Source of the DNA: Rhabdaerophilum sp. SD176
GTDB taxonomy: Bacteria > Pseudomonadota > Alphaproteobacteria > Rhizobiales > Beijerinckiaceae
Length of the DNA: 64,000 bases
Assembly (NCBI RefSeq): GCF_030143245.1
Contig: NZ_JARJNS010000005.1
Coordinates: forward strand, 248,001 to 312,000
Direction: 5' to 3'
In this document: one piece after another, positions 542 to 12,616 of the stretch
Layout of the letters: every line of letters begins with the position of its first letter
Position numbering within the stretch: position 1 is the first letter of the stretch
Program-made: the position numbers and the translations under genes
Notes under the pieces: generated by a model
Told to the model about the DNA's origin: nothing
Database searches by the model: none
What the model saw: only the letters and a program-made list of their open reading frames with translations

Positions 542-3208
542 TCAGCCGGCTTTCTCGAGGCGATTTTCATCGAGCATCCTCCGGATGTCATGGCGGCAGG
601 AGCCGCAATTGGTGCCGGCCTTCAGCGCATCGCCGATGACCTCCACCGAAGCCTTGCCCTCGCGGATGGCCGCCAGGATCTCGTTCACGCCGACCTGGAA
701 ACAGGCGCAGACGATCGCGCCGCGATCCGGCCGGTCCGCCCCGCCGCGCCCGGCGAGGATCCGGAACCGTTCCGCCGCCGAATGGGCGCTGCCGATGGCA
801 TCCGACAGGAAGGACCGCGAAAGCCGCACCGGCTCCGGCGCGAGGAAAAGCGCCCCGGCCAGCGCCTCGCTGCGGAACGCGGCAAGGCGGGCCCGCCCGG
901 CCTCGCGATCATGCAGCGCCACCCACTCGGCGTCGTCTTCGGGCAGGCCGAACAGCCGCGCGGCCATGGCCTGCGGATCGGCGAGCGGGGTCTCCCCCGC
1001 CATCTCGATGCGGTAACCGCCCTCGACTGGCGCGATGGCCCAATAGGTATCGGGCGGCGGGTCAGGACGACGCGCGGTCACTGCGAAGCCGAACCATTGA
1101 GCGGCATAGCGCTCGATCCGGGCCGGCGTGCGCTTCAGGCCGGGCTGGCCGGAAACAGGGTCGGTCATCCGGTCGACCAGCTTGTCGACGCGGCCATCGC
1201 TGGCGAAGCGATCCGTCCAGTGGATCGGCACGAAGACCGAGCCCCGGCGCTGGCGCGGGGTCACCATGGCGCGGACCACGGCTTCCCCGTGGCGGGAGCG
1301 AACCCGGACAAGATCGGCCGGCGCGATACCTGCCGCCGCAGCGTCATCCGGGTGGATCTCGGCAAAGGGTTCGCCGAACTGGCCGAGCAGGGCCGGCGCC
1401 CGGCCGGTCCGCGTCATCGTGTGCCATTGATCGCGGATGCGGCCGGTATTGAGCCAGAGCGTGTGTTCCGCATCCCTCGGCTTCGTCTCCGGCGGCAGGG
1501 CGATGGCGATCATCCGCGCCTTGCGGTCCGGCGTGAAAAACCCGCCTTTCGCAAAGAACCGTCCGCCATCCGCTCCATCGGTGGGTTTCGGCCAGAGGAA
1601 CGGGGCCATCGCATCGAAAGCGGCATCCCCGATCCCGGCCACGCCGCCCAGATCGAAATCGCGCGTGCCGCCATTCTCGAAAGCCGAGAGGGCGGCATGC
1701 TCGCGGAAGATCGCGGCGGCATCCGGATAGTCGAACCCGGCAAAGCCCATCCGCCGCGCCACTTCGGCCATAGCCCACCAATCGGCACGGGCCTCGCCTG
1801 GCGGCAGCAGGAAGCCGCGCTGGCGCGAGATCCGTCGCTCGGAATTCGTCACCGTCCCGTCCTTCTCGCCCCAGCCGAGTGCGGGGAGCAGCACATGGGC
1901 ATGGCGGGTCGTGTCGGTCTCGGTCAGGATGTCGGAAACCACCACGAAGGGGCAGGCCGCGAGGGCGGCGTCGATGCGCCCGGCTTCTGGCAGCGAATCG
2001 GCCGGGTTGGTCGCCATGATCCAGAGCGCCTTGATCCGCCCGTCGAGCACGGCATCGAAGAGATCGACCGCTTTCAGCCCCGGTCGTGGCGCCATTTTGG
2101 GAGAATGCCAGAAGCGTTGCACCCGGTCGCGCGCAGCCTCGTCCTCGATATTCATATGGGCGGCCAGCATGTTGGCGAGGCCGCCGACTTCCCGCCCGCC
2201 CATCGCGTTGGGTTGCCCGGTGATCGAGAAGGGCGAGGCGCCGGGCTTGCCGATACGCCCGGTATAGAGATGGCAGTTGATGATGGCATTGGCCTTGTCG
2301 GTGCCCCGGACCGACTGGTTTACGCCCTGGCTGAAGATCGTCAGCGTGCGGGGCGTCCGGGCGAAGGTCTCGTAGAAGGCGCGGATCTGCTCGGCGGGAA
2401 GTCCGGTCAGGTCGGCAACGCGGGGAACAGGCAGGGCGCGGGCCTCGGCGAGCGCGGCATCCACGCCCGAGACATGGGCCTCGAGATAGGCTGTGTCGCC
2501 CAGCTCCTCCGCTTCAAGATGCCGAAGCAGCCCGAGGAAGAGCGCGGCATCGCTGTCCGGCTCGAGTGCGAGATGCAGGTCGGCCGCCTCGGCGGTCATG
2601 GTTCGGCGCGGATCGATGACGATGATCCGCGTCCCCCGGCTCTCGCGGGTAGCCAGCAGCCGCTGGAACAGGACCGGATGGCACCAGGCGAAATTCGACC
2701 CGACGAGCACCACGAGATCGGCCTCGTCGAGATCGTCGTAGAGCGCCGGCACCGTGTCGCTGCCGAAGGCCCGGCGATGGGCGGCCACCGAGGAGGCCAT
2801 GCAGAGCCGGGAATTGGTGTCGATATTGGCCGAGCCGATGAAGCCTTTCATCAGCTTGTTGGCGACGTAGTAATCCTCGGTCAGTAGCTGGCCCGAGACA
2901 TAGAACGCCACCGAATCCGGCCCATGCTCGGCGATCGTCTCGGAAAACCTCCGCGCCACAAGGTCGAGCGCATCATCCCAGCTGGCCCGCTGCCCATGGA
3001 TCGAGGGATGGGTGAGCCGCCCCTCCATCCCTAACGTGGCGCCAAGCGCCGTACCCTTCGAACAGAGCTTCCCGAAATTGGCCGGGTGGTCCGGATCGCC
3101 GGCAATGGCGATACTGCCATCCGCAAGCGGCGTGGCCAGAACCCCGCAGCCGACCCCGCAATAGGGGCAGGTTGTGCGCGTGGTCGGGCCGGCCGCTCCT
3201 TCAGCCAT
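542..3208 (-). CDS. nasA: Assimilatory nitrate reductase catalytic subunit NasA
   Basis: 888-residue molybdopterin oxidoreductase that reduces nitrate to nitrite in the cytoplasm. The N-terminus has a 4Fe-4S site, CPYCGVGC plus GKLCSKG (C14, C17, C21, C49), and NSRLCMAS supplies the probable Mo-ligand Cys136. The last 58 residues form a BFD-like [2Fe-2S] domain (C834, C836, C868, C871), a form common in bacterial Nas enzymes and a likely electron entry point. I start at ATG 3208, which overlaps the nirD stop by 8 bases; the frame stays open upstream but the extra residues look non-coding. No separate flavoprotein electron donor gene is next to it. It lies between nirD and cysG in one operon. 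Confidence 0.95.
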   Translation of the reverse strand: MAEGAAGPTTRTTCPYCGVGCGVLATPLADGSIAIAGDPDHPANFGKLCSKGTALGATLGMEGRLTHPSIHGQRASWDDALDLVARRFSETIAEHGPDSVAFYVSGQLLTEDYYVANKLMKGFIGSANIDTNSRLCMASSVAAHRRAFGSDTVPALYDDLDEADLVVLVGSNFAWCHPVLFQRLLATRESRGTRIIVIDPRRTMTAEAADLHLALEPDSDAALFLGLLRHLEAEELGDTAYLEAHVSGVDAALAEARALPVPRVADLTGLPAEQIRAFYETFARTPRTLTIFSQGVNQSVRGTDKANAIINCHLYTGRIGKPGASPFSITGQPNAMGGREVGGLANMLAAHMNIEDEAARDRVQRFWHSPKMAPRPGLKAVDLFDAVLDGRIKALWIMATNPADSLPEAGRIDAALAACPFVVVSDILTETDTTRHAHVLLPALGWGEKDGTVTNSERRISRQRGFLLPPGEARADWWAMAEVARRMGFAGFDYPDAAAIFREHAALSAFENGGTRDFDLGGVAGIGDAAFDAMAPFLWPKPTDGADGGRFFAKGGFFTPDRKARMIAIALPPETKPRDAEHTLWLNTGRIRDQWHTMTRTGRAPALLGQFGEPFAEIHPDDAAAAGIAPADLVRVRSRHGEAVVRAMVTPRQRRGSVFVPIHWTDRFASDGRVDKLVDRMTDPVSGQPGLKRTPARIERYAAQWFGFAVTARRPDPPPDTYWAIAPVEGGYRIEMAGETPLADPQAMAARLFGLPEDDAEWVALHDREAGRARLAAFRSEALAGALFLAPEPVRLSRSFLSDAIGSAHSAAERFRILAGRGGADRPDRGAIVCACFQVGVNEILAAIREGKASVEVIGDALKAGTNCGSCRHDIRRMLDENRLEKAG

Positions 3209-3554
3209 GGGGCACAGCGAGCCGGGCGATCGCCTGCGCATCCAGCAGGATGCGCCCGTCGAGGCGCTGGACCGGAATTTTCGGCGTGCAGCCGTGATCG
3301 GCGCCCTGCGCCTCACCGGTTTCGAGGCTGATCACCCAGTTATGCAGCGGGCAGGTCACGCCATGACCATGCACAATGCCCTGGCTGAGTGGCCCGCCCT
3401 TGTGGGGGCAACGGTCCCGCAGGGCGAAGACCGAGCCATCCGCGGCTCGGAAGACCGCGATATCGCCGGCGGCACTGCGCACGACGCGGGCCCCGCGCAG
3501 AGGAATATCGGATTCGGCACCGACATCGATCCATTCTGGCGTCATCGCATTCAT
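3201..3554 (-). CDS. nirD: Nitrite reductase small subunit NirD (Rieske type)
   Basis: 117-residue small subunit of the NADH-dependent assimilatory nitrite reductase. It keeps the complete Rieske [2Fe-2S] ligand set, CPH (C49, H51) and CPLH (C68, H71), spaced as in Rieske ferredoxins. Many enterobacterial NirD proteins have lost these ligands, so this is the cluster-bearing kind. It begins 9 bases after nirB and overlaps nasA by 8 bases, which suggests translational coupling. Confidence 0.94.
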   Translation of the reverse strand: MNAMTPEWIDVGAESDIPLRGARVVRSAAGDIAVFRAADGSVFALRDRCPHKGGPLSQGIVHGHGVTCPLHNWVISLETGEAQGADHGCTPKIPVQRLDGRILLDAQAIARLAVPHG

Positions 3555-3563
3555 GGCCCCCTC

Positions 3564-6017
3564 CTATTCCGCCGCCTGGGGCAGCCCGAGCGTGCCGATC
3601 GGGGCGAATTCATGCGCATCCTTGCCGGCCACGCGTTCGGCCCAGGGATCGATCTGCGCGTAGCGCTGGCTCAGCACGAACCGGTCGAACAGAACACGCC
3701 GCCGCGCGGTATCCTCGATGACCGCCTTCTTGATCGAGTCGCTCCCGACCCGCTTGGCCCATTTGTAGATGCGCTCGAGATAGCGGCCCTGCTCGCGGTA
3801 GAGCTGGGTCAGCGCCGCGATGATCTCGATCGTCTCGTCCTCGGTCCGGGCATGGCCCAGGACCTGCGTGCCATGGATGTCGAGCCCGGCGGCCCCGGCG
3901 AAATGGATCTCGTAGCCGGAATCGACGCAGATCACGCCGACATCCTTGCAGGTCGCCTCGGCGCAGTTCCGCGGGCAACCGGATACCGCCATCTTCACCT
4001 TGGCCGGTGTCCAGGAGCCCCACATGAATTTCTCGATCTTCACGCCGAGACCCGTGGAATCCTGGGTGCCGAACCGGCACCAGTCGGTGCCGACGCAGGT
4101 CTTCACCGTGCGCAGCCCCTTGGCATAGGCCGCACCGGAGATCATCCCGGCCTGGTTGAGATCGGACCAGACGGCGGGAAGATCCTCCTTCTTCACGCCG
4201 AGCAGGTCGATCCGCTGCCCGCCGGTGACCTTCACCGTGGGGATGGCGAACTTGTCGACCACATCGGCGATCGCGCGGAGTTCCTTCGCGCTTGTCAGCC
4301 CGCCCCACATCCGCGGCACCACCGAATAGGTGCCGTCCTTCTGGATGTTGGCGTGGACGCGCTCGTTGATGTAGCGCGACTGGCTGTCATCCGCATATTC
4401 GCCCGGCCAGTCGCAAATCAGGTAGTAATTCAGCGCCGGGCGGCATTTCGCGCAGCCGCAGGAGGTCTTCCAGCCGAGTTCCTGCATGATTGCGGGAATG
4501 GATTTCAGCTCCTTGGCCTTGATCAGCCGGCGGACATCGTCATGGCCGAGATCCGTGCAGCCGCACATCGGCTGGACGGCGGCCGGGTTGTAGCTGTCGC
4601 CGAGGCTCAGCCTGATGACCTGCTCGACAAGGCCGGTACAGGAGCCGCAGGAGGCCGAGGCCTTGGTATGGGCCCGCACCGCATCGAGGCTCGTCAGGCC
4701 CAGTTCGGCGATCTTCGTTGTGATCTTGCCCTTGCAGACGCCGTTGCAGCCACAGATCTCTGCCTCATCCGGCAAGGCTGCAACGGCTGCCATAGGGTCC
4801 GCGAGGCCACCTCCCTGGTAGCCCTGACCGAAGATCAGTGTTTCGCGCATCTCCGAGATATCGGTGCCGCGCCTGATCATGTCGAAGAACCATGGCCCGT
4901 CGCCGGTATCGCCGTAGAGCACGGCGCCGATCAGGATGTTGTCCTTCAGGATGAGGCGCTTGTAGACGCCGCGCATGGGGTCGCGCAGGACGATTTCCTC
5001 GCGGTCCTTCGCATCGGCGAAATCGCCGGCGGAATAGAGGTCGATTCCCGTCACCTTGAGCTTCGTGGCCGTGGCCTGCGGGCTGAAGGCCGCCGTGGCA
5101 TCGCCCGTCAGCTGCCTGGCGACCACGCCGGCCATGTCATAGAGCGGCGCAACAAGACCGAAGACCTGCCCCGAGGCTTCCGCGCATTCGCCAAGGGCGA
5201 AGATGTCAGGGTCGGAACTGCGCATATCCGGGCTGACGACAATGCCCCGGTTGACCTCCAGCCCGGCCATCTTGGCCAGCCCGGCATTCGGGCGGATGCC
5301 CACCGCCATGACAACGAGATCGGCCGGATAAATCGTCCCGTCATCAAGGCGCACGCCCGTCACCCGGTCCGTGCCGGTGATCTCGTGCGTGTTGGCCTTG
5401 CAATGAACCTTGATGCCGCGCGATTCGACTGCCTTCTGCAGCAGGTAGCCCGCCGCCGGATCGAGCTGGCGTTCCATCAGCGTCGGCATGAGATGGAGCA
5501 CGACCACCTCCATGCCCTGGGCCTGCAGGCCGGCTGCGGCCTCAAGGCCGAGCAGCCCGCCGCCGATCACCACGGCCTTCCCGCCTGATTTCGCCGCCAG
5601 CATCATGGCGTGGACATCGTCGAGATCGCGGTAGGTCAGCACGCCCGGCAACTGGTGCCCCGGCACCGGAATGATCACCGGGTTCGACCCGGTGGCAATG
5701 ATCAGCTTGTCATAGGGAACCGTCTCGCCATGCTCGGAGGTCACCGTCCGGGCGTCCCGGTTTATTTCGGTAACCTTGTGCCCTTTGTACAGCGTGATCC
5801 CGTGATCGATGTACCAGCCATCGCCGTGGATCACGATCTGCTCGAAGGTCTTCTCGCCGGAAAGGACCGGCGAAAGCATGATCCGGTCATAGTTCACGCG
5901 CGGTTCGGCGTTGAAGATCGTTACCTCATAGGCATCCGGCGCCAGCTCGAACAGCTTCTCGAGCGCACGGCCCGGCGCCATGCCATTGCCGATGACCACA
6001 AGTTTCTGCTTGGCCAT
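3564..6017 (-). CDS. nirB: Nitrite reductase [NAD(P)H] large subunit NirB
   Basis: 817 residues; six-electron reduction of nitrite to ammonium. Domains in order: FAD/NAD-dependent pyridine nucleotide reductase (VVIGNGMAPG at 7-16, VVIGGGLLGLEAA at 149-161), BFD-like [2Fe-2S] domain (C422, C424, C427, C457, C460), a second cysteine-rich stretch (CGC at 485-487 and CGCAKC at 520-525), then the siroheme/4Fe-4S sulfite-nitrite reductase domain with CVGTDWC (C641, C647) and CPRNC (C681, C685). Length and motif order match complete NirB. It sits 10 bases after the transporter ATPase gene and needs the siroheme made by CysG at the operon end. Confidence 0.97.
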   Translation of the reverse strand: MAKQKLVVIGNGMAPGRALEKLFELAPDAYEVTIFNAEPRVNYDRIMLSPVLSGEKTFEQIVIHGDGWYIDHGITLYKGHKVTEINRDARTVTSEHGETVPYDKLIIATGSNPVIIPVPGHQLPGVLTYRDLDDVHAMMLAAKSGGKAVVIGGGLLGLEAAAGLQAQGMEVVVLHLMPTLMERQLDPAAGYLLQKAVESRGIKVHCKANTHEITGTDRVTGVRLDDGTIYPADLVVMAVGIRPNAGLAKMAGLEVNRGIVVSPDMRSSDPDIFALGECAEASGQVFGLVAPLYDMAGVVARQLTGDATAAFSPQATATKLKVTGIDLYSAGDFADAKDREEIVLRDPMRGVYKRLILKDNILIGAVLYGDTGDGPWFFDMIRRGTDISEMRETLIFGQGYQGGGLADPMAAVAALPDEAEICGCNGVCKGKITTKIAELGLTSLDAVRAHTKASASCGSCTGLVEQVIRLSLGDSYNPAAVQPMCGCTDLGHDDVRRLIKAKELKSIPAIMQELGWKTSCGCAKCRPALNYYLICDWPGEYADDSQSRYINERVHANIQKDGTYSVVPRMWGGLTSAKELRAIADVVDKFAIPTVKVTGGQRIDLLGVKKEDLPAVWSDLNQAGMISGAAYAKGLRTVKTCVGTDWCRFGTQDSTGLGVKIEKFMWGSWTPAKVKMAVSGCPRNCAEATCKDVGVICVDSGYEIHFAGAAGLDIHGTQVLGHARTEDETIEIIAALTQLYREQGRYLERIYKWAKRVGSDSIKKAVIEDTARRRVLFDRFVLSQRYAQIDPWAERVAGKDAHEFAPIGTLGLPQAAE

Positions 6018-6027
6018 GATCCGCTCC

Positions 6028-6822
6028 TCAGGCCGCTTCGACGAGCCGGTGGCGCTCGTACAGGAACCGCAGCACGGCTTCGCGCGCGGCGATGTAGCGG
6101 CTGTCCGAAACCAGATCGAGCCGCTTGCGCGGGCGCGGCAGGTCGACGGTCAGCACTTCGCCGATCCGCGCGGCCGGGCCATTCGTCATCATGACGATCC
6201 GGTCCGAGAGCAGCACGGCCTCGTCGACATCATGCGTGATCATGATCATCGTGTTCTTCAGCCGGGCATGGATATCCATGACGCTGTCCTGCAGATGCGC
6301 GCGGGTCAGCGCGTCGAGTGCGCCGAAGGGCTCGTCGAGCAGCAGGATCTTCGGCTCCATGGCCAGAGCCCGGGCAATGCCGACCCTTTGTTTCATGCCG
6401 CCGGAGATCTCCGAGGGGCGCTTGTCGCGGGCATGGCCCATCTGCACGAGATCGAGATTGGCCATGATCCAGTCATGCCGCTCCGCCCGGCTCTTCTTGC
6501 CGGAAAACACCTTTTCCACCGCGAGCTTCACATTCTCGTAGACCGTCAGCCAGGGCAGCAGCGAATGGTTCTGGAACACCACGGCCCGTTCCGGCCCCGG
6601 CGCATTGACCTCGCGATTCTCCAGCAGGACGGCGCCGGCTGTCACCTGCGTCAGCCCGGCAATCAGGTTGAGCAGGGTCGACTTGCCGCAGCCGGAATGG
6701 CCGATGATCGAGACGAACTCGCCCTGGTCGATCGTCAGGCTGATATCCTTGAGGACTTCGGTGGTCTGGCCACCGCGGATGAAGCTTTTGTCGAGATGAT
6801 CGAGCTTGAGATAGGCAGGCAT
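6028..6822 (-). CDS. nrtD: Nitrate ABC transporter ATP-binding protein
   Basis: 264-residue single-domain ATPase of a nitrate/sulfonate/taurine-type importer. Walker A GHSGCGKST (41-49), signature SEISGGMKQR (137-146) and Walker B ILLLDEP (159-165) are intact. It has no fused NrtA-like regulatory domain, so it corresponds to NrtD rather than to the longer NrtC. It lies 14 bases after nrtB and 10 bases before nirB, so transport and nitrite reduction are co-transcribed. Confidence 0.93.
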   Translation of the reverse strand: MPAYLKLDHLDKSFIRGGQTTEVLKDISLTIDQGEFVSIIGHSGCGKSTLLNLIAGLTQVTAGAVLLENREVNAPGPERAVVFQNHSLLPWLTVYENVKLAVEKVFSGKKSRAERHDWIMANLDLVQMGHARDKRPSEISGGMKQRVGIARALAMEPKILLLDEPFGALDALTRAHLQDSVMDIHARLKNTMIMITHDVDEAVLLSDRIVMMTNGPAARIGEVLTVDLPRPRKRLDLVSDSRYIAAREAVLRFLYERHRLVEAA

Positions 6823-6836
6823 GGGAGATCTCCTTC

Positions 6837-7748
6837 TCAGCTGGCCGAGGTGCCGCGGGTGACGAGATTGCCGATCGCCGCGACCAGACGGTCCAGGGCG
6901 AAGCCGACGACGCCGATATAGAGAAGCGCGACGATGATGTCGGAGAGCTTCGAGGAGTTCCAGGCGTCCCAGATGAAGAAGCCGATCCCCACCCCGCCGG
7001 TCAGCATTTCCGCTGCCACGATGGCGAGCCAGGACAGGCCGATGCCGATGCGCAGGCCGGTGAAGATGTAGGGTGCTGCCGAGGGCACCATGATCTTGAA
7101 GAAGAATTCGAACGTGTTCAGCCGCAGAACCTGCGCGACGTTGCGGTAATCCTGCGGAATATTGCGGATGCCGACGGCCGTGTTGATGATGATCGGCCAG
7201 ATCGCGGTGATGAAGATCACGAAGATCGCGCTGGGATTGGCATCGCGGAAGGCAGCAAGGCTGATCGGCAGCCAGGCCAGCGGCGGCACCGTGCGCAGCA
7301 CCTGGAAGATCGGGTCAAGTCCGCGCGTCGCCCAGACCGACTGGCCGACTAGGGCGCCGAGCAGCACGCCGACCACGGCCGCGAGGCCGAAGCCGATCGC
7401 CACGCGTTCGAGTGAGGTCAGCACGCGCAGACCGAGCCCGATATCCTGCGGCCCCATGACGAAGAACGGATCGAGGATCAGATCCTTCGCTTCGGCCCAG
7501 ATCACGCTCGGGGCCGGCAGGCTCGCGCCCGGCTGGGCAAAGCCGATCTGCCAGACCAGCAGCAGCACGCCCAGCACCAGCAGCGGTGGCACAGTGGTCG
7601 CGGCGATGCCTTTCAGCTGATCCAGGATCTTTTTTCCTTTCCCGTCGCTCTTGCGGGTGGGAAGGGCGACGATCTCGGCGGCCTTGGCGCTCGCCTTCGG
7701 GCCGGGGAGGGATGTCACGTTGTCGGTTTTCTGCACGGGGACGGCCAT
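6837..7748 (-). CDS. nrtB: Nitrate ABC transporter permease
   Basis: 303-residue inner-membrane permease of the binding-protein-dependent transport family. A hydrophilic N-terminal tail of about 45 residues precedes several membrane segments, for example TTVPPLLVLGVLLLVWQIGF, and the permease core. The EAA-type loop is recognisable around RNIPQDYRNVAQVLRLNTFE. It lies between nrtA and the ATPase gene on the same strand, forming a complete importer. Confidence 0.92.
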   Translation of the reverse strand: MAVPVQKTDNVTSLPGPKASAKAAEIVALPTRKSDGKGKKILDQLKGIAATTVPPLLVLGVLLLVWQIGFAQPGASLPAPSVIWAEAKDLILDPFFVMGPQDIGLGLRVLTSLERVAIGFGLAAVVGVLLGALVGQSVWATRGLDPIFQVLRTVPPLAWLPISLAAFRDANPSAIFVIFITAIWPIIINTAVGIRNIPQDYRNVAQVLRLNTFEFFFKIMVPSAAPYIFTGLRIGIGLSWLAIVAAEMLTGGVGIGFFIWDAWNSSKLSDIIVALLYIGVVGFALDRLVAAIGNLVTRGTSAS

Positions 7749-7799
7749 GGCGCTCTCCAGGAACGGGGAAGGGGGCCGCCGTCGGGCGGCCCGCGTTGA

Positions 7800-9113
7800 T
7801 CAGGCGATGCGCTTGACGGAAAGGGACTTGAGGTAGCCCATCGGGTCGGCCGGATCGAAAACCTTGCCGTCGAAGAACTTTTCCACGCCGCGGCTGTCGC
7901 CGGTCGGATAGCCGGTCAGGCCGAGGCCCTTGGCCGCCTCGATCCAGAGATCCGAGCGGTTGGTCTTGTCGACCAGCGCCTTGATGTCGAGCGTCGGCTC
8001 GAACTTGCCCCAGCGGATATTCTCGGTGACAAACCAGGCATCGAGGCTCTTCCAGGGATAGGAAACCTCGCCCGACTGGCCCCAGAACTTCATCAAGAGG
8101 TTGGTGCCCTTGGCGACCTTTCCCCGGCCGTAATTGATGTCGCCCTTGATGCGGCCGATAATGTCCGGCACCGGCACGTTGAACCATTGCCGGCGGCCGA
8201 CGATCTCGGCCATCTCCTGCTTGTTCTCCATCTTCTCGCACCAGATCTGGGCTTCGATGGTCGCGCGGAGGATGGCCTGCGTGGCCTTCGGATTGGCATC
8301 CACCCAGTCCGCACGCATGCCGAGGACCTTCTCCGGATGCTTGAACCAGACCTCGCCGGTCGTGCAGGCGGTGAAGCCGATATTCTGGTTGACGAGCTGC
8401 TCGTTCCACGGCTCGCCCACGCAGAAAGCGTCCATGTTGCCGACCTTCATGTTCGCCACCATCTGCGGCGGTGGGACCACGATGGTCGAGACATCCTTGT
8501 CCGGGTCGATGCCGGCCGCCGCCAGCCAGTAGCGGATCCAGAGATCATGCGTGCCGCCGGGGAAGGTCATCGCGCATTTCACTTCCTTCCCGGCGGCCTT
8601 CTTCTTCGCAAAGGCTTCCTTCAGCGCCGTGGCATCGGTGCCGACCGGAAGGTCCTTGTATTCGTTGGAGACGGAGAGACCCTGGCAATCCTCGTTCAGG
8701 CGCAGCAGGGTATACATCGGCAGGGGCTGGCTGTTCTGCATCACCTTGCCTGTCCCGTAGAGGTAGGGCTTGGGCGACAGGATATGCCCGCCATCGATGC
8801 CGTTCGCCTTGGTGCCGAGGGCCATGTTATCGCGCGTGGCACCCCAGGAGGCCTGTTTCAGGATTTCCATATCCGGCACGCCATGCTTGGCGAAAAGGCC
8901 CTTCTCCTTGGCGATGATCAGCGGCGCCGCATCGGTCAGCGCGATATAGCCCAGCTTCGTGCCCTTCACCTCCGGTCCGGTGCCCTGCGCGAAGGCGCCA
9001 CCCGGGAAAGCGAGCCGGGCAGCGGCGGCGGTTGCACCCGCAGCAGCGCCCAGTTTCAGGATATCACGGCGGGTGGCCACGGGGTCCCTGGCGGTCAGAA
9101 CCTTTGACGTCAT
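7800..9113 (-). CDS. nrtA: Nitrate ABC transporter substrate-binding protein, Tat-exported
   Basis: 437-residue periplasmic binding protein of the CmpA/NrtA family and first gene of the nitrate operon. The N-terminus carries a twin-arginine signal (TRRDILKLG followed by an Ala-rich hydrophobic stretch ending near GGAFAQ). The frame is open for another 55 codons upstream, but ATG 9113 is preferred: it has a good AGGAGAG ribosome site and puts the Tat motif at the N-terminus, and the upstream codons overlap the leader terminator. The binding domain shares family features with NasS upstream, which lacks a signal peptide. Confidence 0.93.
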   Translation of the reverse strand: MTSKVLTARDPVATRRDILKLGAAAGATAAAARLAFPGGAFAQGTGPEVKGTKLGYIALTDAAPLIIAKEKGLFAKHGVPDMEILKQASWGATRDNMALGTKANGIDGGHILSPKPYLYGTGKVMQNSQPLPMYTLLRLNEDCQGLSVSNEYKDLPVGTDATALKEAFAKKKAAGKEVKCAMTFPGGTHDLWIRYWLAAAGIDPDKDVSTIVVPPPQMVANMKVGNMDAFCVGEPWNEQLVNQNIGFTACTTGEVWFKHPEKVLGMRADWVDANPKATQAILRATIEAQIWCEKMENKQEMAEIVGRRQWFNVPVPDIIGRIKGDINYGRGKVAKGTNLLMKFWGQSGEVSYPWKSLDAWFVTENIRWGKFEPTLDIKALVDKTNRSDLWIEAAKGLGLTGYPTGDSRGVEKFFDGKVFDPADPMGYLKSLSVKRIA

Positions 9114-9149
9114 CCTTGCTCTCCTTTGCGGCACGGGGCCGTTGAAATG

Positions 9150-9198
9150 AAAAACCGCCGGCAGCGATCTCCTCGGGAAGAGGAGGGCTGGCCGGCGG
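9150..9198 (-). terminator. Leader intrinsic terminator before nrtA
   Basis: On the minus strand a 7-bp GC arm (CCGCCGG, 9198-9192) pairs with CCGGCGG (9161-9155). Inner pairing comes from CAGC/GCTG and CTCCTC/GAGGAG around a GGGAA-type loop, and the stem is followed at once by five U (9154-9150). It sits between the two-hairpin ANTAR target and the nrtA start, so it is expected to stop transcription unless NasT binds the leader. Confidence 0.85.
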
Positions 9199-9203
9199 CA
9201 TTG

Positions 9204-9251
9204 CCGAATACCCGTTCGGGTGAAAACTGAATTCAAGCCGTCATTGGCTTG
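9204..9251 (-). promoter_or_regulatory. Two-hairpin ANTAR (NasT) RNA target in the nrtA leader
   Basis: Read on the minus strand, hairpin 1 is CAAGCC-AAUGAC-GGCUUG (9251-9234): a 6-bp stem with a hexaloop having A at position 1 and G at position 4, as in known ANTAR targets. After a 14-base linker, hairpin 2 is CCGAA-CGGGUA-UUCGG (9219-9204): a 5-bp stem and hexaloop with G at position 4 but C instead of A at position 1. An intrinsic terminator follows within 6 bases. nasT, encoding an ANTAR protein, is the neighbouring gene. The architecture fits NasR/NasT antitermination; the second loop is slightly off consensus. Confidence 0.8.
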
Positions 9252-9261
9252 AGACAAGGAC

Positions 9262-9278
9262 AGCACCTTTCGTGCCAA
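9262..9278 (-). promoter_or_regulatory. Sigma-54 (-24/-12) promoter of the nitrate operon
   Basis: The minus strand reads TTGGCACGAAAGGTGCT, with GG and GC separated by exactly 10 bases, which is the invariant spacing of RpoN promoters (consensus TGGCACG-N4-TTGCW). The predicted start, about 12 bases downstream of the GC, falls near 9251, at the first base of ANTAR hairpin 1. This implies general nitrogen control (NtrC-type activator) on top of nitrate-specific antitermination. I did not find a convincing NtrC site upstream; a TGCAC-containing stretch near 9394-9408 is only a weak candidate. Confidence 0.78.
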
Positions 9279-9418
9279 GTCCGGCGTTGCGCCCGAGACC
9301 TCACAGATTCTGGAATGGATTCAAGTTGTTAGAATTCCAGATGCAGCACGGTCCTTTCGGCCGGCACCGGAATTCTTTTCAGCCCGGCCGCCATGCTGCA
9401 GTGCATCATGCCGAAAAA

Positions 9419-10582
9419 TCAGGCAGGGTCCTGCCGCTGGTCCCGCAGGATCTGGCGGGCGAGATAGGCTTCCGCATCGGCGGGTTCGAATACCTCGCCG
9501 TCAAACAGCCCGGATACCGGTGCCATGCGATAGGGCTCCTCCCGGCCGCCGGATGCGGCGAAGAGTTCCGGCGCGTACGAGGCTTCCGCCCGGCGGCGTG
9601 CCTCGTCCGAAAGGGTCGTCTGGCCCCAACGGGCCATCTGCGTCAGGAACCAGATCGCCGTTTCCCGGCGGGGCGCATTCGCTTCCCCGCCGCCGAAGAC
9701 GAGGAAATCCTGCAACTGGTGCCGCCTTCCATCAGCCAGCAGCATTTTCCCGGTCAGCGGCGCGGCAATATCCTCCTTCGGCAGGTGCAGCCGGCCCGGC
9801 GCTGCGAGAATGTCGATCAGCTCGTCGGCATTTGACTTGTCCGCACACCAGGTCGCTGCACGGCGGCAGGCGCGCAGCAGCGCCTGCACCGCGTCAGGAT
9901 TCGCTTTCGCCCAGGGTGCGCGCAATCCGAGGATCTTTTCCGGCCCGTCACGCCAGATCGCCGACTTGGTGAGGACGATGCGGCCGCCGAAGCGCCGTGC
10001 GGCATGGCTGCTCCACGGCTCGCCGGCGCTGAACCCGTCGAGGCTCCCGCTGGCCAGCGCATCGGGCATGAGTGGTGGCGCAAGGATCGCCAGCTCGATA
10101 TCCCGCCCGGGCTGGATGCCGGAGGCAGCCAGCCAGTAGCGCAGCTCATAATTGTGGGAGGAATGCGGATGGACCACGGCGAGCGTCGGTTTGCCGCCTG
10201 GCCAGGTGCGCAGGGCGAGGCGCAGGGCGCGGCCGACCGACTTCGCATCATTGGCGACGACATCCGGCGCCACGCGCAGCATGGCCTGCCAGAGGGCTTC
10301 CGACACCGTGGTCGCATTGCCGCCGACGCCGAGCGTCATGGCCGCAACCACGGGCACGTCGAGCGGCGTCAGCCCGAGCGCCGCCGCCACCGGCATCGGC
10401 GCCAGCATATGCGCGGCATCGAAATGGCCGATGGCCAGCCGGTCGCGGATATTGGCCCAGGAGGTCTCGCGGACGAGTTCGATCTCGAGCCCCTCGGCGG
10501 CGGCAAAGCCCTTGTCCGCCACCACGATGGGGATCGAGGCATCAATCAGCGGGATGAAGCCGAGGCGGATGGGGGCCTTCAT
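9419..10582 (-). CDS. nasS: Nitrate sensor NasS (NrtA-like, cytoplasmic)
   Basis: 387-residue CmpA/NrtA-family protein beginning MKAPIRLGFIPLIDASIPIV, with no signal peptide, so it is not a transporter binding protein. In known systems NasS holds NasT inactive and releases it on binding nitrate or nitrite. The start overlaps the nasT stop by 4 bases, giving tight coupling of sensor and antiterminator. Downstream is the 305-base nrtA leader carrying the target RNA. The role rests on this context and on the missing signal sequence. Confidence 0.9.
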   Translation of the reverse strand: MKAPIRLGFIPLIDASIPIVVADKGFAAAEGLEIELVRETSWANIRDRLAIGHFDAAHMLAPMPVAAALGLTPLDVPVVAAMTLGVGGNATTVSEALWQAMLRVAPDVVANDAKSVGRALRLALRTWPGGKPTLAVVHPHSSHNYELRYWLAASGIQPGRDIELAILAPPLMPDALASGSLDGFSAGEPWSSHAARRFGGRIVLTKSAIWRDGPEKILGLRAPWAKANPDAVQALLRACRRAATWCADKSNADELIDILAAPGRLHLPKEDIAAPLTGKMLLADGRRHQLQDFLVFGGGEANAPRRETAIWFLTQMARWGQTTLSDEARRRAEASYAPELFAASGGREEPYRMAPVSGLFDGEVFEPADAEAYLARQILRDQRQDPA

Positions 10583-11181
10583 TCGCGATCTCCCAGGATC
10601 AGGGATGCGCTGGCGATCAGCGCGCGGGCGACATCACCCATGCGGCGGTTTTCGCGCATGGCGGTGCGCCGGAGCAGGTGATGCGCTTCGTCTTCCGTCA
10701 TGCCGCGTGTTTTCATCAGGATTGCCTTTGCCCGGTCCACGGCCTTGCGGTCTTCCAGCGCCTGGCGCGTGCCCTCCAGTTCCGACCGCAGCCGGGAATA
10801 GGCATTGAACCGGGCAATGGCCATATCCATGATCGCCTTCACCCGGTCCTGCCGCAGGCCATCGACCACATAGGCCGAAACGCCCGCATCGATCGCCGCC
10901 TCCATCATGCTGCTGTCGGACTGGTCGACGAACATCGCGATCGGCTTGTCCACGACCCGGCTCATCTGGAGCAGATACTCCAGCCGGTCGCGGTTCGGGT
11001 TCTCGAGATCGATCACGATCACATCCGGTGACAGCTCGACAATCTGGCGCATCAACCCCTGCATATCCGATAGAACGGTCACTCTCTCATGCCCGGCTTC
11101 CCGCAGCCCCGCCTCGATGATGGCGGCGCGTACCCGGTTCTCGTCGATGATCAGGACGGAAAGCTGGGCAGCCGGGATCAC
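10579..11181 (-). CDS. nasT: ANTAR-domain antiterminator NasT
   Basis: 200 residues: an N-terminal receiver-like domain (D13, D58) and a C-terminal ANTAR RNA-binding domain (about 137-190, AVDRAKAILMKTRGMTEDEA). The receiver lacks the usual conserved Thr/Ser (FVDQSD) and Lys (AYVVDGL) positions, so it is a pseudo-receiver, consistent with control by NasS binding rather than phosphorylation. It is expected to bind the hairpins at 9204-9251 and prevent termination. It is transcribed divergently from the sigma-factor gene at 11355. Confidence 0.92.
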   Translation of the reverse strand: MIPAAQLSVLIIDENRVRAAIIEAGLREAGHERVTVLSDMQGLMRQIVELSPDVIVIDLENPNRDRLEYLLQMSRVVDKPIAMFVDQSDSSMMEAAIDAGVSAYVVDGLRQDRVKAIMDMAIARFNAYSRLRSELEGTRQALEDRKAVDRAKAILMKTRGMTEDEAHHLLRRTAMRENRRMGDVARALIASASLILGDRE

Positions 11182-11354
11182 GCGCGAGGGGGCCTCTCAG
11201 ATTGTGCAGTGCGATATGGTGGCACGGATCGCGGGGGGATCAACCGAAATTTTCCCGGGACGTTCTTCCCTTTGCTTGCGCAAACGCGTCTTATGCCTGC
11301 ATCCGCCGGGCCTTCCGGGGTGTATTCCCCCTGTCGGCCCAAGCCGAGGACGAA

Positions 11355-11906
11355 ATGACGAACGACCCTGTCGGAACCGAACTGGCAACCTGCCTGCGCG
11401 ACATCGCGCAAGGCCGGGCCGATGCGTTCCGGCGCCTGTACGAGGCGGAGGCTGGCCGGATGCTGGGCATCGCGCTGCGAATCCTGAAACGCCGGTCCCT
11501 CGCGGAGGAGGCGGTCCATGATGCCTTTGTCAGCATCTGGAACCGCGCGGCCAGCTATGATGCCCGGCTCGGCAGCCCGCGTGGCTGGATCCACACGATC
11601 GTCCGGAACCGCGCGCTGAACATCCTGCGTGGCGAGGCCCGGACGGAGCTGACCGATTCGCTGGAACCGCTTGAGATCGCCTCCGGGGACGAGAATCCCG
11701 AGGAGGCGGTCGGGCGCCTGTCCGATGCCGAGGCGCTCAGGCATTGCCTCGATCGCCTCGAGACGGCGCCGCGCCACGCCGTGGTGCTCGCCTATGTCGA
11801 GGGGCTGAGCCATGGCGAGATCGCAGAACGGTTGCGGATCCCGCTCGGCACCATCAAGAGCCGGATCCGGCGGTCACTGCTTGCGCTGAAGGAGTGCCTT
11901 GGATGA
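11355..11906 (+). CDS. ECF-family RNA polymerase sigma factor
   Basis: 183 residues with sigma-70 region 2 (FRRLYEAEAGRMLGIALRIL through AFVSIWNRAASYD) and region 4 (CLDRLETAPRHAVVLAYVEG, then SHGEIAERLRIPLGTIKSRI), the minimal ECF layout. I start at ATG 11355 after GAGGACGAA; the frame is open upstream but those residues resemble non-coding sequence. The stop overlaps the start of the anti-sigma gene by 4 bases (ATGA). I could not identify a matching ECF-type promoter in the 173-base divergent gap, so autoregulation is unproven, and the inducing signal is unknown. Confidence 0.9.
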   Translation: MTNDPVGTELATCLRDIAQGRADAFRRLYEAEAGRMLGIALRILKRRSLAEEAVHDAFVSIWNRAASYDARLGSPRGWIHTIVRNRALNILRGEARTELTDSLEPLEIASGDENPEEAVGRLSDAEALRHCLDRLETAPRHAVVLAYVEGLSHGEIAERLRIPLGTIKSRIRRSLLALKECLG

Positions 11907-12616
11907 GTCTCTCGCGGGATGACATGGCTCTTGCGGGAGAATTCGTTCTCGGCGTGCTGGACAGGGGCGAGCGGGCGGCACTCGAGCGGCGCATCCAGCG
12001 GGATCCGGCCTTTGCCGAGGCGGTGGCGGAATGGCAGCGGCATTTCGCCGGGTTGGATGCTAGTGCACCGGAACTTACGCCCTCTCCCGAACTCTGGTCC
12101 CGCATCGAGGCCAGCCGCCTGGCCTTCAGGGCGGAACGTGCGGCACCGCGCGAGCGTGTCGGGCTGGCCGGGCTCTGGGACTCGCTCCGTCTCTGGCGCC
12201 CGCTCGGGCTGGCCGGCACCCTGGCCTCACTCATCCTCGGCATCGCCCTGCTGATCCGGGTTGCTGCCGGCCCGGAAGCGCCGCAACTTGTCGCGGTGCT
12301 CTCGGTGCCGGATGGCCGGGCTGCCGCCGTGGTCCATGCCTATGCCAACGGGACCGTCCAGCTCATTCCGCTCGATACGATTCCCGTTCCCGATGGCCGG
12401 GTTCTCGAGGTCTGGACGCTGCAGACCCGCGAGCAGGGCCCCGTCTCGCTGGCGCGGATGGACCGCGCCCGCACGATCAAGCTGGAACTCAGGGGGCTTT
12501 CGCCCGCACAGGTCGGCCATCTGTTCGAGATCACCCTCGAGCCGCAAGGCGGCTCCCCCACGGGCAAGCCCACGGGGCCGATCCTGATGAAAGGCCTCGC
12601 GGCAACCCGGCTCTGA
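11903..12616 (+). CDS. Membrane anti-sigma factor, RskA/anti-sigma-K type
   Basis: 237 residues, overlapping the ECF gene by 4 bases. The N-terminal cytoplasmic part (LAGEFVLGVLDRGERAALER) is a zinc-finger-less anti-sigma domain. One membrane segment follows at about residues 97-120 (LGLAGTLASLILGIALLIRV). The exported C-terminal half (VVHAYANGTVQLIPLDTIPV through GHLFEITLEP) resembles the anti-sigma-K (RskA) domain. It presumably tethers the sigma factor to the membrane until an envelope or oxidative cue triggers release; the cue is not visible here. Confidence 0.87.
   Translation: MSLSRDDMALAGEFVLGVLDRGERAALERRIQRDPAFAEAVAEWQRHFAGLDASAPELTPSPELWSRIEASRLAFRAERAAPRERVGLAGLWDSLRLWRPLGLAGTLASLILGIALLIRVAAGPEAPQLVAVLSVPDGRAAAVVHAYANGTVQLIPLDTIPVPDGRVLEVWTLQTREQGPVSLARMDRARTIKLELRGLSPAQVGHLFEITLEPQGGSPTGKPTGPILMKGLAATRL

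Follow-up and report, generated by a model that had tools for sequence, protein, structure and literature searches.

The window, the whole 64,000-nucleotide stretch of Rhabdaerophilum sp. SD176 DNA that was analysed, carries the following genes around the leader considered here.

542-3316, minus strand: assimilatory nitrate reductase-like molybdopterin protein (start taken from the open reading frame list)
3564-6017, minus strand: nirB-like nitrite reductase large subunit (family search)
6028-6822, minus strand: nrtD-like ATPase (ABC_tran)
6837-7748, minus strand: nrtB-like permease (BPD_transp_1)
7800-9113, minus strand: nrtA, nitrate ABC transporter substrate-binding protein (NMT1_2), the regulated gene in the model below
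9419-10582, minus strand: nasS, predicted nitrate/nitrite sensor (NMT1_2)
10579-11181, minus strand: nasT, predicted RNA-binding response regulator (Pfam Response_reg and ANTAR)

An earlier note, made from the sequence alone, had described adjacent nasS and nasT genes encoding a sensor and an ANTAR protein, and the Pfam matches at 9419-11181 bear this out: a NasT with receiver and ANTAR domains is encoded beside an NrtA-like NasS. The nasT gene is the only ANTAR match in the window's genome. Divergent from it, on the plus strand (11202-12616), lie open reading frames which by eye resemble an ECF sigma factor and an anti-sigma partner.

Anatomy of the nrtA leader

Sequence and folding place a sigma-54 site, hairpins P1, M and P2, a terminator and the nrtA start codon (ATG 9113), in this order on the minus strand, between nasS and nrtA.

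9262-9277, minus strand: sigma-54 (-24/-12) promoter TGGCACGAAAGGTGCT, predicted +1 at 9251
9233-9252, minus strand: P1, first ANTAR hairpin, TCAAGCC(AATGAC)GGCTTGA, loop AAUGAC with A1/G4
9210-9221, minus strand: M, middle hairpin (possible spacer), ACCC-GAAC-GGGU, loop not of ANTAR type
9192-9207 (core 9193-9206), minus strand: P2, second ANTAR hairpin and predicted antiterminator, UCGGC(AAUGCC)GCCGG
Stem 9199-9154 with U-run 9154-9150, minus strand: intrinsic terminator, -33.5 kcal/mol, excludes P2

The 140-nt leader folds 4.1 standard deviations better than shuffled sequences. The AAUGAC hairpin at 9252-9233, the terminator ending in five U and the position of nrtA downstream, all named previously, were recovered in this analysis, the hairpin by both sequence and fold. 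Predicted pair probabilities of P1 are 0.87-1.0, and two of its seven pairs show changes on both sides among nine leaders of the window's genus. Both hexaloops, AAUGAC and AAUGCC, begin with A, have G as their fourth base and are closed by a C:G pair, as in GCC(AAUGAC)GGC and GGC(AAUGCC)GCC. P2 (9207-9192) overlaps the terminator stem and excludes it, G4 of the P2 loop and the 3' arm being the first bases of the terminator 5' arm, and the same overlap was found by script in 79 of the 97 loci compared below. Judged from its sequence, the leader is very probably a NasT-controlled transcription antitermination leader.

The general identification given before, an ANTAR leader of the NasS-NasT type upstream of nrtA, is right, but the anatomy of the second hairpin is not. 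Hairpin 2 had been drawn with a CGGGUA loop whose C at position 1 appeared non-consensus. This hairpin, CCGAA(CGGGTA)TTCGG at 9219-9204, is drawable, but in a transcript that ends with P2 its predicted pair probability is 0.0, where the pairs of M reach 0.90-0.99 and the four core pairs of P2 0.97-0.99; it competes with both M and P2. The alignment of related leaders proposed in the earlier note does not favour it: P2 keeps 97.8% of cells in nine genus leaders, while the CGGGUA hairpin is intact solely in five near-identical leaders, with 75.6% of cells kept in the nine, no double change, two pairs broken in four leaders and a third in three. That it is nevertheless a second NasT site with an unusual C1 loop, as its being drawable in those five leaders might suggest, is extremely improbable given zero pairing probability, three of five pairs broken in three or four of nine leaders, a loop without A1 and a position without terminator overlap. 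The apparent oddity of a C in first place thus arose from picking the wrong hairpin; the loop of the actual P2, AAUGCC, has A1/G4. With this misassignment one of the two details singled out as unusual vanishes; the odd features are instead the third, middle hairpin and the long linker between P1 and P2, both overlooked there.

Promoter and upstream region

The GG-N10-GC promoter claimed for this leader is present as TGGCACGAAAGGTGCT at 9277-9262. Counting the C of the -12 GC as 9263, spacing puts the predicted +1 on the second base of the P1 stem (9251), in agreement with a start inside hairpin 1. TGGCACGAAAGGTGCT is the sole zero-mismatch match to TGGCACGN5TGCW in the window; with one mismatch, five matches compare with a chance expectation of 2.95. 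As the match is weak alone, its conserved position carries the evidence. The promoter is unchanged in all five nearest genus leaders (window's own included). Of 83 leaders, 82 have their best sigma-54-like site at 59-103 nt on the upstream side of the P2 loop; the exception, L042, has no such site in that range. The short distance between promoter and hairpin, which had been regarded as unusual, is therefore no peculiarity of this genome. At -12, many relatives, including Bosea, show TTGT or TTGA where the window has TTGC, and a strict GG-N10-GC is therefore not universal. Besides the GG-N10-GC site, the genome contains one RpoN gene and ten matches to sigma-54 activator domains, seven of them strong.

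An imperfect palindrome, CATGATGCACTGCAGCATG, at 9410-9392, some 150 bp before the predicted start, is nearly invariant in the five nearest genus leaders and is possibly an activator site. Judged by eye, it does not fit the Paracoccus denitrificans consensus for NtrC. A conserved block (TAACAA..TGAATC..TTC..GAATC, 9331-9306) between palindrome and promoter could, as a guess, be a site for IHF. At the end of nasS a terminator-like hairpin (9435-9422) was observed; transcription of nasTS may therefore stop before the nrtA promoter.

Conservation of the leader and co-occurrence with ANTAR proteins

The comparison comprised 97 nrtA loci, namely the window's own, 16 relatives and 80 genome records (the best 80 of 572); L007 and L032 are from one genome, and 13 NrtA paralogues of low identity (L019-L031) were left out of the counts. 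A P2 with A1/G4 was present in 83 of the 97 loci, the window included, 79 being found by script and four set by hand (L065, L066, L067 and L078; L042, also listed by hand, agreed with the script). Three otherwise similar leaders (L017, L060, L088) have by eye a P2-like loop that begins with G (GACGCC), and no such ANTAR leader was found in the remaining 11. By the script rule, six of the 83 leaders (L013, L014, L043, L056, L071, L081) lack an A1/G4 partner for P2; L043 and L056 have possible P1 loops GACGCT, in which position 1 is G rather than A.

An Rfam search of positions 7000-12000 matched no family at E values up to 1. A covariance search of the window's own genome with model R1 gave 22 matches, this leader scoring 81.9 bits and the next 26.9 bits. 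The second and third matches (C17:53912 and C19:222185) were rejected as NasT targets, both lying inside long open frames which look like SdhA and a proton-pumping pyrophosphatase. Over 289 genomes of the class, R1 gave six matches outside the window's genome with E values of at most 0.001 (26.4-30.3 bits); none is leader-like by eye, and matches of about 27 bits were consequently taken as noise. Model R2 consisted of the two ANTAR hairpins only.

Leader and ANTAR protein largely occur together. Among leader-bearing loci, 71 of the 72 of known state have an ANTAR protein, with a nasT beside nrtA counted as such and 13 of the 85 loci, of unknown ANTAR state, standing outside the 72; 75 of the 85 also have a NasS match upstream in the same orientation. 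A search of 24 genomes detected ANTAR proteins in 12 of the 13 that are not leaderless and in none of the 11 leaderless ones, for which completeness is reported in one case and which include several metagenome assemblies, two of about 2.0 Mb. In L088, a 2.1 Mb assembly with a leader-like stretch, an ANTAR protein was not found. Four independent pairs on the tree are all concordant with co-occurrence (p 0.125, too few for significance). One member of the window's genus, L010 (genome G009, 100% complete), has nrtA with a sigma-54-like site and no adjoining nasST; neither an ANTAR protein nor an ANTAR leader was found there, an apparent joint loss of both.

Linker length, the middle hairpin and the proposed mechanism

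The linker between P1 and P2 in the window is 25 nt long, with 13 unpaired bases if M folds. This length is outside the 5-12 nt of eut linkers, for which 3 or 14 nt reduced induction (PMC3369931), and at the limit of the 2-25 nt kept in a survey of actinobacterial targets (PMC8164766); 13 unpaired bases come close to the eut range without falling inside it. In folds of the 83 leaders from the start to P2, exactly two hairpins precede P2 in 73 cases, one in six and three in four, and the ANTAR-type loop sits on the first, the middle or both of these hairpins. Script labels for this layout were far in 49 leaders, near in 20, both in eight and none in six; five of the eight, all of the Agrobacterium group, were moved from both to far, because their second loop, ATAGGC, requires a mismatch. 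By eye, L017 was assigned to far, and L060 and L088 to G1. Loop-to-loop distances to P2 are 36-53 nt in far-type and 17-25 nt in near-type leaders with none between, and linkers measure 18-36 nt in 18 representatives of the 54 far-type leaders and 1-8 nt (median 3) in the 23 near-type ones (three labelled both included). With both counted as near and L007 left out because it shares its genome with L032, a quick NrtA tree without bootstraps implies no fewer than five changes of layout class. The length of NasT does not follow these changes: 58 full-length NasT proteins, of which only L032 is from the window's genus, differ from the window's by gaps only at residues 4-6 or 190-195, and in the absence of internal length change an adjustment of NasT length to the long linker was rejected.

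With no structure supplied, RNAalifold drew P1, M and P2 both in the nine genus leaders and in 27 leaders of Rhizobiaceae (26 distinct). M shows double changes in one of four pairs in the genus set and in four of seven pairs in the Rhizobiaceae; the pairs of P2 are nearly invariant and therefore uninformative for covariation within a group. In both alignments the covariation score of the three-hairpin structure exceeded those of all 500 shuffles, although for the genus set 49 of 500 shuffles reached the observed count of double-change pairs, these controls covering the whole three-hairpin structure rather than M singly and leaving relatedness in place. The MAFFT alignment is uncertain for so short and variable a stretch. 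Taken alone, the window's linker does not fold significantly better than dinucleotide shuffles (p 0.13); the mean fold z of long linkers is -1.65, with p below 0.05 in eight of 18 representatives. M is unsupported in a group with distances of 36-40 nt, mostly Bosea (representatives L016, L037, L048, L055, L068 and L074; p 0.09-1.0), so that a linker of 18-22 nt may work unfolded there. Support for M at the level of sequence thus covers the window's genus and Rhizobiaceae, but not every long linker.

The role of M was considered in the light of EutV, with which 20 additional nucleotides in the linker abolished antitermination in vitro (PMC8934654). By this rule a linker of 25 nt should fail unless it is folded, and since NasT length is constant, M may be a spacer helix. 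This is the reading we tentatively prefer, with a confidence that falls just short of even. NasT may also be more tolerant of the linker than EutV. M could then be a decayed third binding hairpin that has no present job, NasT coping with long linkers, and the group of mostly Bosea leaders without a well-supported M fits this explanation, as do the A1/G4 loops on both upstream hairpins of L042, L065 and L066. A stem without a job should melt, yet M has kept pairing through double changes in four of seven Rhizobiaceae pairs and is present in genus leaders whose M sequences differ; we consider a decayed hairpin rather unlikely.

Plasmid-borne leaders bear on the origin of M. A NasT search matched 224 plasmid records, and nine of 11 fetched stretches were scanned, with Acetobacter and Azospirillum left out. 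In three of the nine, one from Rhodobacter and two from Paracoccus, three A1/G4 hexaloops follow one another, which likewise speaks for a decayed hairpin; the two Paracoccus stretches have no run of five T, and their minimum-energy folds show fewer than the three hairpins. A fourth A1/G4 loop is present in one of these two. In Leisingera, Sulfitobacter and Phyllobacterium the layout is far (47-50 nt), with an intervening hairpin, and the Niveispirillum stretch has one A1/G4 loop. The Sinorhizobium meliloti stretch gave one short match and nothing leader-like in the part inspected. On a Methylocystis plasmid (L143, 5234-5597), nasT and a nasS-like gene are followed by nirB, and before nirB lie two ANTAR-type hairpins with loops 33 nt apart and another hairpin between them. 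Because three-loop leaders exist on plasmids, their sequences suggest that M is a former binding hairpin. Alphaproteobacterial NasT leaders might thus descend from an array of three hairpins, of which, depending on the lineage, the first or the middle one lost its protein-binding loop and kept its helix as a spacer, so that the slot of P1 moves at unchanged NasT length; we judge this scenario possible, if somewhat doubtful.

The three-loop leaders also agree with a third role, in which NasT, assembled into more than a dimer, contacts M, or M acts as a pause hairpin for RNA polymerase. P. denitrificans NasT freed from NasS has been estimated at about six monomers (PMC3795266), which would suit such a contact. 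The M loops of the nine genus leaders (GAAC in the window) vary in sequence and none is an A1/G4 hexaloop, and this role is improbable.

With M as a spacer helix, the leader would work as follows. Transcription would start from the sigma-54 promoter at the foot of P1, as inferred from spacing, and P1, M and P2 would fold in this order. By analogy with relatives, NasS would hold NasT in the absence of nitrate, and the stronger terminator would form before nrtA; with nitrate, NasS would free NasT, whose ANTAR domains would bind the A1/G4 loops of both P1 and P2 at once. M would pack the 25-nt linker into a compact helix, allowing one NasT dimer to reach both loops. With P2 held in this way, the terminator stem would be left with 10 of its 18 pairs and shifted away from the U-run, and transcription would continue into nrtA. 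The parts of the leader, the mutual exclusion, the conservation, the covariation of M and the co-occurrence with ANTAR proteins were computed here; nitrate sensing, release of NasT and loop recognition are presumed from published work on relatives.

The closest known system is that of P. denitrificans, where the same two proteins are encoded beside nitrate genes. According to the accessible parts of the reports, NasT binds nasA leader RNA with nitrate (PMC3795266), and of two hairpins, HI and HII, located 137 and 91 bp upstream of nasA, HI is required for expression (PMC3795266, PMC5424462). Compared by description only, the nasA leader differs in that those parts name no spacer hairpin (PMC3795266, PMC5424462). 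Klebsiella oxytoca NasR, which controls nasF by nitrate-dependent ANTAR antitermination, shares with the present leader the nitrate control and A1/G4 loops on P1 and P2 with a top C:G pair (PMC7496416, PMC3369936). It differs by uniting sensor and RNA-binding parts in one protein, and the accessible text mentions no hairpin lying between its P1 and P2. The overlap of P2 with the terminator agrees with the ANTAR model as available from PMC3369936.

The eut leaders of Enterococcus faecalis, controlled by EutV, resemble the present one in two A1/G4 hexaloop hairpins and a P2 that excludes the terminator (PMC3369931); in the sections available they have short linkers, in contrast to the window's linker with its predicted hairpin inside. 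Actinobacterial ANTAR targets likewise have dual stem-loops with A1/G4, and an intervening hairpin is not named in the available part of that survey (PMC8164766). Our literature search, in whose scope papers on Azotobacter and Bradyrhizobium leaders did not fall, recognised no description of a hairpin between two ANTAR hairpins. If the three-hairpin descent is true, the idea of a fixed linker, derived from EutV, would give way to a silent helix that sets the geometry of P1 and P2. With a covarying hairpin as spacer, it would become clear how long linkers can function, and searches could recover leaders excluded by a length rule such as at least one survey has used. Related bacteria with near- and far-type leaders and NasT of equal length make the question of geometry testable. 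Compared with these systems, the mechanism is already known; the novelty lies in a probable spacer hairpin and in a P1 slot that can move.
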